Shown here: one piece after another, positions 5,228-61,537 of the stretch
Numbering within the stretch: position 1 is the stretch's first letter
How the letters are laid out: the number at the start of each line of letters is the position of its first letter
DNA from: Bacteroidales bacterium
Lineage (GTDB): Bacteria; Bacteroidota; Bacteroidia; Bacteroidales; VadinHA17
Reading direction: 5' to 3'
NCBI GenBank assembly: GCA_003141895.1
Contig: PLNT01000007.1
Span: 101,783-165,782, forward strand
DNA length: 64,000 bases
The notes under the pieces: generated by a model
Seen by the model: only the letters and a program-made list of their open reading frames with translations
Told to the model about the DNA's origin: nothing
Databases searched by the model: none
Program-made: the position numbers and the translations under genes

Positions 5228-5395
5228 TACAAGAGCTATACTCCGTATAACTCCGTAATAATTCCGTGTTACTCCGTGGTTAAGAAAAGGAATAAAGGAA
5301 AAAGATTTATACCCCACTTTTTTGAGGGTTTGTTTGTAATAAAACTATTCGAATAACGGAATAATAGCCCCCTTTAGGGGGTTGGGGGGTATTTT
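5228..5395. repeat. ACTCCGT word repeat and GC-rich CCTTTAGGGGG repeat
   Basis: Four ACTCCGT/ATTCCGT words (TATACTCCGTATAACTCCG and following) lie at 5230-5275. A GC-rich palindrome, AGCCCCCTTTAGGGGGTTGG, is near 5365-5393. The rest of the trmD-rocD gap is AT-rich with no further visible signal. Confidence 0.65.
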
Positions 5396-18691: not shown

Positions 18692-19558
18692 ATGAAAACC
18701 AGAAAATTCAACTATCACACAATGCGGCGGACAATATTAATGCTGATCATTGTTTCTATTTGCTCCATCTTTGCAAACGCACAGAAGAAAAACAAGATTG
18801 ATTACCTTTCTTTAAGGAAACTACCAGCCCTTACTCTTGAAGAAAAAACTCCCTACAGCTATGAAATGATAGCTGATTACTATAATCATGATATTTTAGG
18901 AAATTTTCTTGGCAAAATGCAGGTCAAAGGAACATATACTCGAGGATTGGAAAATGGAAAGGTAAGCTGGAAGGATGTTACAATTGCCCAGGCTTCAGGC
19001 CTGGACCAGTCTTATCCTGCGGGCGCAAAACAGACATACATGGAAAATTTTACTTATGATCCAAAAGATAACCTTATTGCGACGGATATCTTTAAGACTT
19101 TCCCTGCAGCTACTGGTGTATTTGCAAAAAACCTGGTCTGGGATGTTGTTAGTTTTGAGGTATTCGGATGGGTATACTACGATTCATTACAGCTAAATAT
19201 CCCTTTTACAGCCAGGAAAATGAACGGAAAAATGAATCTGCCCGAACTGGGCAGCTTTGAAAATAAAGATATCAAACTTACCTGGACAGGCATTTCAACG
19301 ATGAATAACAAAATTTGTGCTGTTATCGAATTCCTTGCAATGGATAATCCTCTTGATTTTAAAACCGATTTCATGCAGATGAAGGGTAGAAGCCATTACT
19401 GGGGGACTCTCTGGCTTTCATTGTCTGACAAACAGATTGAATATGGCATCCTTCATGAAGATGTAAATATGGAAATGAAACTACCAGGTCAGGAAAAAAA
19501 TCAACTTTTGAATACAACCAGAAAGATTGAATTCAAAAAAATTAAGAAACAAAATTAA
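18692..19558 (+). CDS. Exported protein of unknown function
   Basis: This 288-residue protein has a signal peptide (MLIIVSICSIFANAQKK). The mature part is rich in predicted beta strands and aromatic residues (YSYEMIADYYNHDILGNFLG, FEVFGWVYYDSLQLNIPF, GRSHYWGTLWLSLSDKQIEY). No catalytic motif or named domain is recognisable. The ATG at 18722 (MRRTILM) is an equally plausible start and gives a more compact signal peptide. It follows the M28 peptidase by 193 bp on the same strand and ends in a repeat-filled gap. A periplasmic or outer-membrane-associated location is likely. Confidence 0.7.
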   Translation: MKTRKFNYHTMRRTILMLIIVSICSIFANAQKKNKIDYLSLRKLPALTLEEKTPYSYEMIADYYNHDILGNFLGKMQVKGTYTRGLENGKVSWKDVTIAQASGLDQSYPAGAKQTYMENFTYDPKDNLIATDIFKTFPAATGVFAKNLVWDVVSFEVFGWVYYDSLQLNIPFTARKMNGKMNLPELGSFENKDIKLTWTGISTMNNKICAVIEFLAMDNPLDFKTDFMQMKGRSHYWGTLWLSLSDKQIEYGILHEDVNMEMKLPGQEKNQLLNTTRKIEFKKIKKQN

Positions 19559-19600
19559 CCAACACCCCCTCCCGCTTCGCGGGGTCCCCCAAAAGGGTGA
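19559..19600. repeat. GC-rich intergenic repeat
   Basis: CACCCCCTCCCGCTTCGCGG is followed by GGTCCCCCAAAAGGGTGAC. It belongs to the dispersed GC-rich family and lies immediately after the preceding stop codon. Confidence 0.65.
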
Positions 19601-19651
19601 CTAATTCAGTATCATTAATGGATCTAAATAAAATAATTAGAATTTACCCCC

Positions 19652-19751
19652 CTTTAGGGGCTAATCTTACATCACATTTATTTTATTATATTCCGGCAAT
19701 AAGAAGGAGATTGACTTAAATAAAGATGTGATGTAAGATTAGCTTTAGGGG
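19652..19751. mobile_element. 82-bp MITE-like element with 9-bp target duplication
   Basis: The element spans 19661-19742. Its ends are the inverted repeat CTAATCTTACATCACA and the exact reverse complement TGTGATGTAAGATTAG. It is flanked on both sides by the 9-bp direct repeat CTTTAGGGG (19652-19660 and 19743-19751). Removing the element and one flank restores an ordinary GC-rich intergenic repeat (TTTACCCCCCTTTAGGGGGG). This is the hallmark of a short non-autonomous transposable element. It has no coding capacity, and the transposase is not in the window. Confidence 0.75.
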
Positions 19752-19769
19752 GGGCAGGGGGGCAAAAAA

Positions 19770-21905
19770 TCAGGTATTCCCTATGTCTTTCATCGACAAT
19801 TGAATCCTCCTTCTTTCGATATCAACCGCAATAACCTTCACCTGCAAATGCTGATGCAGCTTCACCATAGTTGACGGGTCTGTAATGTAATTTTTGCTCA
19901 TATTTGAAATATGTACCAACCCGTCCTGCTTTATTCCGATATCCACAAACGCCCCGAATTTTGTAATATTTGTTACAATTCCCGGGACAACCATTCCCTC
20001 CTTAACATCTTCTATTGAGTGTATATCGGCAAAACTGAAAACCTGGATCTTAGACCTCGGATCACGGCCTGGTTTGGCAAGCTCATCTATAATATCTTTC
20101 AAGGTAGGTAAACCGGTTGACGGACTTACATATTTCTCAAGCTTGATCTCTTTTCGTTTGCTGTCATTTGTGATCAGCTCTTTTACATCTACTCCAAGGT
20201 CCTTTGACATTTTTTCAACAACGTGGTAACTCTCAGGATGTACAGCGCTTGAATCAAGAGGATTATCTGCATTACGGATCCTCAGGAATCCTGCACTCTG
20301 TTCAAAAGCCTTTTCTCCCATCCTCTTTACCTTTAAAAGCTCCTTACGTGCACTGAATGGTCCATTCTCGGCCCTGTAATCAACAATATTCTGGGCCAAT
20401 TGCGGACCGAGACCTGAAACATAAGTCAGCAGGTGCTTGCTTGCTGTGTTCACCTCGACTCCAACTGCATTCACACAACTCATTACAACATCATCAAGCG
20501 ATTTCTGCAATTTTTGCTGATCCACATCATGCTGATACTGACCAACTCCTATTGATTTGGGATCAATTTTTACAAGCTCGGCAAGCGGATCCATAAGTCT
20601 TCTCCCGATGGATATTGCACCCCGTACAGTTACATCATAATCAGGAAATTCATCACGGGCTGTCTTGGATGCAGAATAGATTGAAGCTCCTGCTTCACTT
20701 ACTACAAAGACCTGGATATCAGCATCAAACTTGATCCATTTTATAAAATCTTCTGTCTCGCGACTGGCAGTTCCGTTACCAATTGCAATAGCTTCAATCT
20801 TATACGCATTCACCAGAGACAAAATCTTCTTAATCGACATGGCAGTCTCATTCTGAGGTGGATGTGGATAGATAGTCTCATTATGAATGAAATTGCCCTG
20901 CCTGTCGAGACAAACTACTTTACACCCTGTTCTGAAACCGGGATCAATAGCAAGAACATTTTTCTCACCAAGTGGTGATCCGAGAAGCAGCTGACGAAGA
21001 TTATCTGCAAAAACATTTATTGCTTCAATGTCCGCCTTTTCCTTTGAAATATTCCTGAACTCAGTCTCCATTGAAGCTGAAAGCAATCGTTTCCAGCTAT
21101 CTTTGACTGCATCAGTAACAATATCAGAAGAAGCGTTCCTTCCCTTTATAAAAATCGATTTCAGCATGTCGAGTGCATGTGTTTCATCCGGTTCCACAGA
21201 CAGCCGTAAAAATCCTTCATCCTCACCTCTTCGCATTGCCATAAGCCGGTGTGAAGGACATTTTCTGAGCGGCTCAGACCAATCGTAATAATCACTGTAT
21301 TTTATTCCTTCTGATTCTTTTCCCTTAACGACTTTCGAGTAGATAACAGCTTCCTTATCAAATAAATATCTCAGTTGTTTCCTTACTTTTTCATCCTCAT
21401 TAATCCATTCGGCTATAATATCCGATGCACCTGAAATAGCATCTTCAACATTTTCAACATCATCATTTAGAAATGCCTCGGCTTTTAATGATGGATCATT
21501 CTCTTTCTGCTCCATTATAAGAATTGCCAATGGCTCAAGCCCTTTTTCCTTTGCAATAGTTGCACGTGTGCGTCTCTTAGGTCTGTATGGCAGATAAATA
21601 TCTTCAAGTTCCGACATTGTAACTGATGCATCAATTCTCTGCCTGAGCTCAGGTGTCATTTTTTCCTGTTCTTCGATAGATTTTATAACAGCTTCTTTTC
21701 TTGCATCAAGTTCTTTCAGACGCTCATATTCTTCTTTAATATGCATCAGTTGAACCTCATCGAGACTTCCGGTCATCTCTTTCCGGTACCTGCTGATAAA
21801 AGGAATTGTTGCTCCGCCATCCATCAGTCTGATTGTATTCTCAACCTGCCATTCATGAAGTCCGAGTTTTTTAGCAACGAGTAAGATGTTCCTGTTTGTG
21901 TTCAT
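19770..21905 (-). CDS. tex: Tex-family RNA-binding transcription accessory protein
   Basis: Conserved nucleic-acid-binding protein of 711 residues; Tex/Spt6-like proteins influence transcription and RNA turnover. Order: N-terminal helical region (NTIRLMDGGATIPFISRYRK), YqgF-like RNase H fold (LAIDPGFRTGCKVVCLDRQG), helix-hairpin-helix segment (YVSGLGPQLAQNIVDYRAEN), and a C-terminal S1 domain (GMVVPGIVTNITKFGAFVDI). The ATG at 21905 is preferred over a TTG at 21920 that would overlap the upstream methyltransferase gene. It follows that gene closely on the same strand and is likely the last gene of a four-gene run from 24.3 kb. Confidence 0.95.
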   Translation of the reverse strand: MNTNRNILLVAKKLGLHEWQVENTIRLMDGGATIPFISRYRKEMTGSLDEVQLMHIKEEYERLKELDARKEAVIKSIEEQEKMTPELRQRIDASVTMSELEDIYLPYRPKRRTRATIAKEKGLEPLAILIMEQKENDPSLKAEAFLNDDVENVEDAISGASDIIAEWINEDEKVRKQLRYLFDKEAVIYSKVVKGKESEGIKYSDYYDWSEPLRKCPSHRLMAMRRGEDEGFLRLSVEPDETHALDMLKSIFIKGRNASSDIVTDAVKDSWKRLLSASMETEFRNISKEKADIEAINVFADNLRQLLLGSPLGEKNVLAIDPGFRTGCKVVCLDRQGNFIHNETIYPHPPQNETAMSIKKILSLVNAYKIEAIAIGNGTASRETEDFIKWIKFDADIQVFVVSEAGASIYSASKTARDEFPDYDVTVRGAISIGRRLMDPLAELVKIDPKSIGVGQYQHDVDQQKLQKSLDDVVMSCVNAVGVEVNTASKHLLTYVSGLGPQLAQNIVDYRAENGPFSARKELLKVKRMGEKAFEQSAGFLRIRNADNPLDSSAVHPESYHVVEKMSKDLGVDVKELITNDSKRKEIKLEKYVSPSTGLPTLKDIIDELAKPGRDPRSKIQVFSFADIHSIEDVKEGMVVPGIVTNITKFGAFVDIGIKQDGLVHISNMSKNYITDPSTMVKLHQHLQVKVIAVDIERRRIQLSMKDIGNT

Positions 21906-21912
21906 AAGCGTA

Positions 21913-23097
21913 TTATTCAACGTAAATAACCAGACCTTTAAGATACTCGCTTTCAGGATGATAAATATTCACTGGATGATCAGCAGGTTGACTCATCTGA
22001 TGCAAAATCCTTACTGATCTGCCGGTATTGGCAGCTGCAGCAAATACTGATTTTCTGAAATTCTCCCTTGTAACGACCTGCGAGCATGAGAAAGTGAAAA
22101 TAATTCCACCTGGTCTGATCTGTTCAATTGCTTTAATATTCAGTCTTTTATATCCCTGAAGGGCGTTTGCTAGAACATCGTTATGTTTTGCAAATGCGGG
22201 AGGATCGAGAATTATCAGGTCATACTGATCTTTAATATGATTCATATATTCGAATGCATCAAGCTGGAATGCCTCATGCCGCTTATCCTCTCCATAATTG
22301 AGTCTTACGTTTTCATTTGCCAATTCAATAGCCGGAAATGAGCTGTCGACCGTATGAACGAGATTTGCATTTTTCATTGCATACACAGAAAATCCTCCTG
22401 TATAGCCAAACATATTCAGTACTGTTTTACCCTCGGTATATTTCTCGAGAAGTTTCCTGTTCTCTCTCTGATCTATAAAAAATCCGGTCTTCTGACCAGT
22501 TGTCCAATCGATTTTAAATTTATAACCGTTTTCAGTCACAATAACGGGCCCTGAATTTCCGACAAGAAACTCATTTGTTGCCTTTATGGACGCCATATGC
22601 GGAATTGTACCCTCACTCTTATCGTAAACAGCGGTAATACGATTATCAAGAAGCTCTGCCAGTATTGATGCAATTTCCTGCCTTATCCGGTAGAAACCAA
22701 TAGAATGCATCTGCATAACAGCTACACCATTGTAAAAATCAACAATAAGACCCGGCAATCCGTCTCCCTCCCCATGGATAAGACGGAATACGTTTATCTG
22801 GGGGTTGTCGATTATGCCGACAGCTCTTCTGTAATTTATTGCCTGTTTAATCTTTTCCCTGAAAAAGTCAATATCCGGAGTTTCCTGTTTAAACGATAGG
22901 ACCCTCACAGCAATAGAACTTGGCTGATAATGTCCTACGGCAAGGAACTCATTTTTATTGTCATACACATCAACCAGGTCGCCTTCTACCGGCTCTCCAT
23001 AGGTTTTTTTTATCGCTCCGGAAAACACCCACGGATGGAACCGGCGAAGAGATTGTTCCTTACCGGATTTAAGGACTATTTTTACTCGTTCCTGCAT
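21913..23097 (-). CDS. Class I SAM-dependent rRNA methyltransferase (RlmI-like)
   Basis: Predicted 23S rRNA cytosine-C5 methyltransferase of the RlmI/YccW type, 394 residues. An N-terminal PUA domain (EQSLRRFHPWVFSGAIKKTY) precedes the Rossmann methyltransferase domain with SAM motif VLNMFGYTGGFSVYA, DLIILDPPAFAKH and a Cys in FTFSCSQVVTRENF. The length agrees with RlmI. The start is 20 bp downstream of the 3'-5' exonuclease stop, and Tex follows within 7 bp, so the genes are very likely co-transcribed. Substrate position is inferred from the family only. Confidence 0.9.
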   Translation of the reverse strand: MQERVKIVLKSGKEQSLRRFHPWVFSGAIKKTYGEPVEGDLVDVYDNKNEFLAVGHYQPSSIAVRVLSFKQETPDIDFFREKIKQAINYRRAVGIIDNPQINVFRLIHGEGDGLPGLIVDFYNGVAVMQMHSIGFYRIRQEIASILAELLDNRITAVYDKSEGTIPHMASIKATNEFLVGNSGPVIVTENGYKFKIDWTTGQKTGFFIDQRENRKLLEKYTEGKTVLNMFGYTGGFSVYAMKNANLVHTVDSSFPAIELANENVRLNYGEDKRHEAFQLDAFEYMNHIKDQYDLIILDPPAFAKHNDVLANALQGYKRLNIKAIEQIRPGGIIFTFSCSQVVTRENFRKSVFAAAANTGRSVRILHQMSQPADHPVNIYHPESEYLKGLVIYVE

Positions 23098-61060: not shown

Positions 61061-61537
61061 AAAAGTGGTAGAGTTGGCGATTTGCTGATGAGGATATTTC
61101 CAAATTTAAGTTGAAAGCTTTTCTTGAACGCTGTTCTGGCCCTGTGGAGATCCCTCACTTCGTTCGGGATGACAATTGTTGTGGTTTAATTAATGGGGAA
61201 GAGTTGGCGATTTGCTGAGCAAATCGCCAACTCTTCCCCATTTCCCATCACAATTACCTGTCATCCTGAGCGATAGCGAAGGATCTCCCCGTGCATCTAC
61301 TAAAAAAAGGACCTAGCATGTCTATGTCCCTACTTAAATATAAATCACCTTAAATTCTACACTTTCTCTCCTTTTACCCCCTTTCTTATTTCCCCCAGGG
61401 GGGAAATGGTGGATTCACTCCTTCCCCCTTGGGGGAAGGTTGAGAAGGGGGTAATCAGACTCAAATATATCATAACGAAGCTTATAAAAAAAGGGACGTA
61501 AAATGCTACGTCCCTAATGAATATAAATCACAATATC
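61061..61537. repeat. Gene-free stretch packed with nested inverted repeats
   Basis: No gene is visible. GAGTTGGCGATTTGCTGA occurs at 61071 and again at 61201. Outer arms GGAGATCCCTCACTTCG (61147 on) and AGCGAAGGATCTCC (to about 61289) are imperfect complements. They enclose a 51-bp near-perfect hairpin (61192-61242) of 25-bp arms with a 1-base loop. A GC-rich paired repeat follows at 61376-61454, then a terminator at 61486-61515. Confidence 0.8.
61486..61515 (-). terminator. Intrinsic terminator of the response-regulator gene
   Basis: Read on the minus strand, AGGGACGTA, loop GCATTT, then TACGTCCCT and a run of seven T. It lies 22 bp after the response-regulator stop. The stem belongs to the GTAGGG palindrome family, here doubling as a terminator. 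Confidence 0.65.

Follow-up and report, generated by a model that had tools for sequence, protein, structure and literature searches.

The stretch of DNA analysed here (the window, 64,000 nt) spans positions 101783-165782 of contig C26 in a genome of 4.01 Mb that is 96% complete and assembled in 46 contigs. Two convergent genes, located at 18692-19558 (+) and 19770-21920 (-), border a 211-bp gap that contains an 82-bp element with terminal inverted repeats, set between the two copies of an exact 9-bp direct repeat (Table 1). The genes at this gap encode a Tex protein and a 288-aa product that matched no Pfam or NCBIfam entry. Since the element sits between two convergent genes, its effect on the host is likely neutral, and no host function needs to be invoked for it.

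Table 1. Features of the intergenic gap, in window coordinates.
Feature	Position	Strand	Basis
Host GC-rich intergenic repeat, split by the element	19561..19763	+	79-81% own-genome matches and core copies; end set by eye
Left target-duplication copy CTTTAGGGG, 9 bp	19652..19660	+	Sequence read
Non-autonomous MITE-type element, 82 bp	19661..19742	+	Sequence, inverted repeat, pattern search
Left terminal inverted repeat CTAATCTTACATCACAT	19661..19677	+	First 19 nt of the element agree at 18/19 with the G005 left end
Homology to longer relatives, left end	19661..19711	+	Own-genome copy C37, 47/51 nt
Homology to longer relatives, other end	19710..19742	+	G058 copies, 29 and 30 of 33 nt
Right terminal inverted repeat, CTAATCTTACATCACAT on the - strand	19726..19742	-	Sequence read
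Right target-duplication copy CTTTAGGGG, 9 bp	19743..19751	+	Sequence read

An 82-bp element nested in a GC-rich repeat

The element interrupts a GC-rich intergenic repeat whose left portion (19561-19660) matches other places in the same genome at 79-81%. The core of this repeat, CCCCCTTTAGGGGG, is matched exactly at 63 places genome-wide, 37 on the forward and 26 on the reverse strand, compared to none for the reversed control. The window holds this GC-rich host repeat (TTTAGGGG/CCCCTAAA) again at 5373, 12960, 13045 and 50581. Joining the two flanks minus one copy of the duplication yields TTTACCCCCCTTTAGGGGGGGCAGGGGGGC, which by eye corresponds to host-repeat copies (e.g. L076 and L097) plus one G. 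A previous sequence-only reading of the window had described an 82-bp element with a 9-bp duplication inside a GC-rich repeat, and had stated that removal of the element with one flank regenerates the host repeat. Our analysis bears out the first statement, and the second holds save for the additional G. The exact terminal inverted repeats, given as 16 nt in that reading, extend over 17 nt, or 18 counting the G and C of the duplication, and continue imperfectly to 25 nt at 88% identity.

An inverted repeat of this length is not explained by chance. No 16-nt inverted repeat within 160 nt arose in 20 first-order Markov windows of 64 kb, whereas the real window contains such repeats at two places (19660-19662 and 61192-61199), the first of which is the sole one with an abutting 9-nt repeat.

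A diverged relative of the element lies on contig C37 of the same genome. It is 309 bp long, and its left end, identical to that of the 82-mer at 47/51 nt, is followed by a palindromic interior. The genome also contains three exact 19-nt ends of the wider family described below. In contrast, a strict pattern search of 117 family genomes for copies with both ends and a total length of 57-87 bp returned none other than the window copy. Near-matches to the window end were found at 4 places in the same genome at 2 mismatches (control, 1) and were left out of the copy counts. Separately, locus L139 (G000:C36:41500-42200) of this genome holds an element with CTACCC ends inside a GC-rich repeat, with TGCCCCACTAA (11 nt) on both sides.

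Comparison with the longer relatives revealed that positions 1-51 of the 82-mer resemble the left end, and positions 50-82 the other end, of elements of approximately 300 bp. The two segments overlap by 2 nt (AT, 19710-19711), the presumed deletion joint. Furthermore, the 82-mer keeps the motif GGAGAT, which forms the edge of the palindromic unit found in the interior of the longer relatives. This unit is also present in the window without Tn5-like ends at 61146-61290, where it reads GGAGATCCCTC ... GGGGAAGAGTTGGCGATTTGC / GCAAATCGCCAACTCTTCCCC ... AGGATCTCC, and it seems to circulate on its own. Because the GGAGAT edge was kept and the unit also occurs without such ends, loss of the interior would be simpler than its gain. 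Hence, judging from these alignments, the 82-mer appears to derive from a ~300-bp element by internal deletion, with 51 nt remaining from one end and 33 nt from the other.

Tn5-like insertion sequences with related ends

An insertion sequence with matching ends, which the sequence-only reading had advised looking for, was found in a congeneric genome, that of Bacteroidales bacterium UBA5621 (G005). This element is 1857 bp long (contig DIKJ01000125.1, locus L042) and is bounded by CTAATCTTTCATCACATTT on the left and CTAATCTTTATACACATCT on the right. Its left end agrees with the left and right ends of the window element at 18/19 and 17/19 positions, respectively. An N gap cuts its left flank and makes it unreadable for a duplication; in this flank, only the last 3 nt (AAG) agree with the right flank CTTGAAAAG. 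In the same genome (L026 3-1106, minus strand, G005:C65), an open frame that may encode a group II intron reverse transcriptase lies beside the IS50-type element, with an NN gap between the two.

The G005 transposase matched the IS4-family model NF033590 (E 9.5e-99) and, in the PDB, chains of the Tn5 transposase (best E 1.1e-25). Its DDE residues are D87, D192 and E333, separated by 104 and 140 residues, both inside the ranges published for the IS4 family (60-110 and 100-150 residues, PMC2266710). The protein also carries the Y(2)R(3)E(6)K signature (Y326-R329-E333-K340, YREK), and it has this signature, D87 and D192 in common with a relative from genome G463. On its sequence, the G005 transposase is thus assigned to the IS4 family, IS50 subgroup (Tn5-like). 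Both G005 ends fit by eye the published IS50 end pattern CW------Y---CA-A--W- (PMC2266710), and the window ends fit it save for position 9, where they have A instead of Y. IS50-subgroup elements generate 8-9 bp direct repeats and typically measure 1350-1550 bp (PMC2266710); the G005 element falls outside this size, which is not a strict criterion, and the G463 relative, at 1522 bp, falls inside.

We also compared the ends with the 19-bp mosaic end of Tn5, using 100000 letter shuffles. The G005 right end agrees at 14/19 positions (19 shuffles as good) and the commonest end of the genus, CTACCCTTTATACACATCT, at 15/19 (4 shuffles as good). The window ends agree at 9 and 10 of 19 positions (12806 and 5009 shuffles as good) and the G005 left end at 10/19 (6605 shuffles as good). 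As these last values are within chance, the link of the window element to Tn5 is indirect, through the G005 protein and right end. The likeness of the family ends to the Tn5 mosaic end of library kits led us to consider contamination by Nextera adapters. This was rejected, as the commonest genus end differs from the mosaic end at 4/19 positions, the G005 right end at 5/19 and the window ends at 9-10/19, family-specific sequence follows the ends, and many ends lie inside contigs.

The G463 relative comes from another family of the same order. It is a complete insertion sequence with identical 19-nt ends, and it has an exact 10-bp duplication, CTGCCAGCAG, between CCCCCTCC and GGAGGGGG, in a GC palindrome. 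A 1433-bp Tn5-like element in G485 (L200, G485:C15, 1442-2874) differs in its ends, CTACCGTGTGGACACATYT, and its flanks show no target duplication. For an IS50-type gene with a stop in G206, no ends were found. The intact IS50-type genes found with ends of the window kind number two, those of G005 and G463.

Searches of the genome that holds the window returned no IS50-type transposase, either by protein at E 1e-10 or by NF033590 at 1e-5. Protein searches found the transposase in 2/60 genus genomes (G005, plus a stop-containing fragment in G044), and the same two were recovered at 1e-20 in 117 family genomes. NF033590 had matches in 6/62 genus genomes at E 1e-5, with G005 alone over the cut-off. 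Among 393 genomes drawn from the order, 3 had the transposase at 1e-40, including one whose gene contains a stop. The source of transposase in the window genome may have been lost, may be unassembled, or may have come and gone.

Taken together, the 82-mer is short and lacks a transposase gene, and it has terminal inverted repeats, a target duplication that agrees at 9/9 nt, and ends in common with an autonomous element from another genome of the same genus. Its length leaves no coding room, in support of the earlier claim that a transposase must be supplied in trans. In all likelihood, the 82-mer is a MITE-type member of the IS4 family, IS50 subgroup (Tn5-like), that was inserted in trans and derives by internal deletion from a ~300-bp element. 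A transposase supplied in trans, probably of IS50 type and acting by cut and paste, would recognise the ~19-bp element ends. Staggered cuts 9 bp apart would then join the element into the middle of the GC-rich repeat, and gap repair would produce the two copies of CTTTAGGGG. The interior palindromic unit would have been lost by an internal deletion, leaving terminal segments of 51 and 33 nt joined at the 2-nt overlap.

This explanation could be refined by supposing that a ~300-bp element inserted first and lost its palindromic middle in place, such that the 82-mer never moved as such. Long palindromes are prone to deletion, and what is missing from the 82-mer is a long palindrome in its relatives. 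The make-up of the 82-mer, in which both ends of the long form overlap by 2 nt, and its being the sole copy with these ends at 57-87 bp in 117 genomes also favor such a deletion. Conversely, two-ended relatives of 128 bp (exact 9-bp duplication) and 137 bp (10 bp, 1 mismatch) suggest that short forms may well move, and a second event would have had little time to occur, given that the ends and the duplication are perfect. We give deletion in place slightly less than an even chance of being correct, and consider deletion after insertion and a mobile 82-mer about as likely as each other. Consequently, the very short mobile unit of the sequence-only reading stands as a transposon-type insertion, whereas the 82-mer itself may or may not have moved, in view of its two halves and its uniqueness. 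The refuting condition of that reading, absence of any other genomic copy, is countered by the diverged relative on C37, although not by a second copy of 82 bp.

Related elements and their GC-rich targets

An exact 19-nt end, CTAMYCTTTATACACATCT, was found in 29/62 genus genomes, compared to none for the control. A sequence search of the genus, the one that led to the G005 end, gave weak matches in 15/62 genomes at E 0.01, likely with chance hits among them. A long-form query matched 26/62 genomes, mostly through the interior that also occurs without these ends, and this figure is no count of elements. Several family copies in G058, G059 and G061 lie at most about 200 nt from contig ends (e.g. 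L014, L029, L033, L035 and L041). These repeats thus seem to break assemblies, which makes copy numbers lower bounds.

To collect two-ended elements, ends located 60-1000 bp apart in the fetched loci were paired, giving 39 rows of which 35 were used. The dropped rows were the window itself, L045 (regarded as chance), an L167 row that paired one right end for a second time, and L149, which had been found with flank letters in the query. The set is not random, as 13/18 stretches of one batch had been picked because both ends showed, and a few of the 35 elements had up to 3 flank letters in their search query. The 35 elements measure 112-927 bp, and three of them (L002, L195 and L196) belong to the window genome.

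Direct repeats of 9-11 nt flank 12/35 elements exactly, 19/35 with at most 1 mismatch and 25/35 with at most 2 mismatches, compared to means of 0.03, 0.10 and 0.42, respectively, with shuffled partners. The remaining 10/35 have no recognisable duplication. Among the 25 duplications, 14 are of 9 nt, 9 of 10 nt and 2 of 11 nt; hence 11/25 are outside the 8-9 bp published for IS50. A 451-bp element of G016, which contains an N gap, also lies at the target CTTTAGGGG, in a host repeat of the kind seen in the window; because the query that retrieved it included flank letters, it was kept out of these counts.

Most of the 35 elements lie between a C-run and a G-run. CCC within 22 nt on the left together with GGG within 22 nt on the right was observed for 26/35 elements, compared to 119/1992 nearby control positions (6%), which were taken 40-300 nt away where the stretch allowed and often nearer than 100. 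Likewise, in a set that partly overlaps the 35 elements, CCC was found at most 22 nt outside the end for 24/31 exact ends with full flanks (30 loci), compared to 17% of random positions in the same loci. The joined flanks fold back on themselves with a mean of 7.44 of 10, against 5.69 at control positions and 6.72 when left arms were combined with the right arms of other elements; fold-back of 8 or more was seen at 36% of sites and at 23% with swapped partners. Because swapped partners already reach 6.72, the flank signal is mostly one of C-run and G-run composition and only in part, modestly above swapped partners, one of pair-by-pair complementarity. The preference for GC palindromes seems to belong to the transposase lineage, and survival between genes could add to the pattern.

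We considered whether mobilisation could instead be due to a transposase from a different IS4 subgroup, or to some other element with similar ends that is missing from the assembly of this genome. The lack of an IS50-type gene in the assembly favors this view, as do the duplications of 9, 10 and 11 nt in the wider set, given that published lengths are 8-9 bp for IS50 and 10-13 bp for subgroup IS4 (PMC2266710). Against it, the two intact IS50-type genes found with ends of the window kind are those of G005 and G463, the intact one of G485 having other ends, and the published table gives other starting letters for the ends of the remaining IS4 subgroups, except for IS10 and ISPepr1 (PMC2266710). 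Such a mover is improbable.

We then turned to the corresponding region in relatives. The wider region has matches in 58/62 genus genomes, almost all through the Tex gene alone. In 19 relative Tex loci, we found neither the host-repeat core (at most 1 mismatch), nor the ends (at most 3 mismatches), nor a match to the 288-aa neighbor; an M28 gene directly adjoins Tex in 9/19 of these loci. The relative loci show absence of both the element and the host repeat, and so do not show a clean empty repeat of the sort that the sequence-only reading had proposed to compare. The order of events, repeat first and element second, hence follows from the nesting and not from an orthologous empty repeat. The nesting sustains the earlier description of an insertion into an older repeat, and its being recent is suggested by the perfect duplication and ends.

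Finally, the strong predicted folds (DNA, 82 nt, z -7.1; RNA, 121 nt, z -7.9) would suit a reading of the 82-mer as a structural hairpin fixed at this place, whether RNA gene, attenuator or terminator, instead of a mobile element. This reading is nevertheless highly implausible given the exact 9-bp duplication, the two-ended relatives at many unrelated places and the absence of the ends from the 19 relative Tex loci. The five matches from Rfam were weak and fell far short of gathering scores, four being to microRNA families, and no terminator-like site was found in 19500-19900; both an RNA gene and a terminator were rejected.

Comparison with known systems and implications

Porphyromonas gingivalis belongs to the same order as the window organism. 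Its MITEs resemble the 82-mer in being short, intergenic and devoid of transposase, with inverted-repeat ends in common with full insertion sequences; those insertion sequences belong to the IS5 family (PMC4596501), unlike the IS4 family, IS50 subgroup, found here. The copies described here also differ from them by nesting in GC-rich repeats. The target of IS231A is a GGG(N5)CCC palindrome, whereas here the left arm is a C-run and the right arm a G-run. IS231A is likewise an IS4-family element with some insertion specificity, but it belongs to another subgroup, its ends begin with CAT, and it generates 10-12-bp duplications (PMC2266710).

With IS50/Tn5, the family shares the end pattern (save for position 9 of the window ends) and, in the genus, a transposase homologous to that of Tn5 that carries the YREK signature. 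Tn5 is the workhorse of sequencing libraries, valued for inserting nearly anywhere. On a large scale its insertion is described as random, with a preference for certain 9-bp sites, and its duplication is of 9 bp, as in the window (PMC2229646). Unlike Tn5, the 82-mer has no transposase and its ends agree poorly with the mosaic end (9-10 of 19), and its relatives have 9-11-bp duplications and prefer GC-rich palindromic sites. IS1111 belongs to another transposase class and is without Tn5-like ends. Its insertion into QMITE2 is comparable in that a mobile element entered a repeated intergenic palindrome (PMC10969869).

Insertion specificity has precedents in the IS4 family (PMC2266710). A literature search on palindrome- or terminator-targeting insertion sequences and IS50-type MITEs, with subscription papers outside its scope, found no report of this Tn5-like Bacteroidales family. 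The element is of an already known kind, a MITE-type IS50 derivative, and the unusual part is the preference for GC palindromes at the level of the family.

A broader scenario, which in our view could equally well hold or fail, is that a Tn5-like transposase lineage of Bacteroidales came to favor intergenic palindromes rich in GC (DNA resembling hairpins, cruciforms or terminators) as a "safe haven" strategy. Deletion derivatives of this lineage, the smallest of 82 bp, would have spread genus-wide by nesting in older palindromic repeats, many of them with another palindromic unit taken up as interior. The set of elements suggests a path from full insertion sequence to ~300-bp forms and then to the 82-bp remnant. 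If the relatives do choose GC-rich palindromes, they would provide a natural system in which to study how an IS50-type transposase picks its target. Furthermore, this family of elements explains part of the layered GC-rich intergenic repeats in these bacteria.
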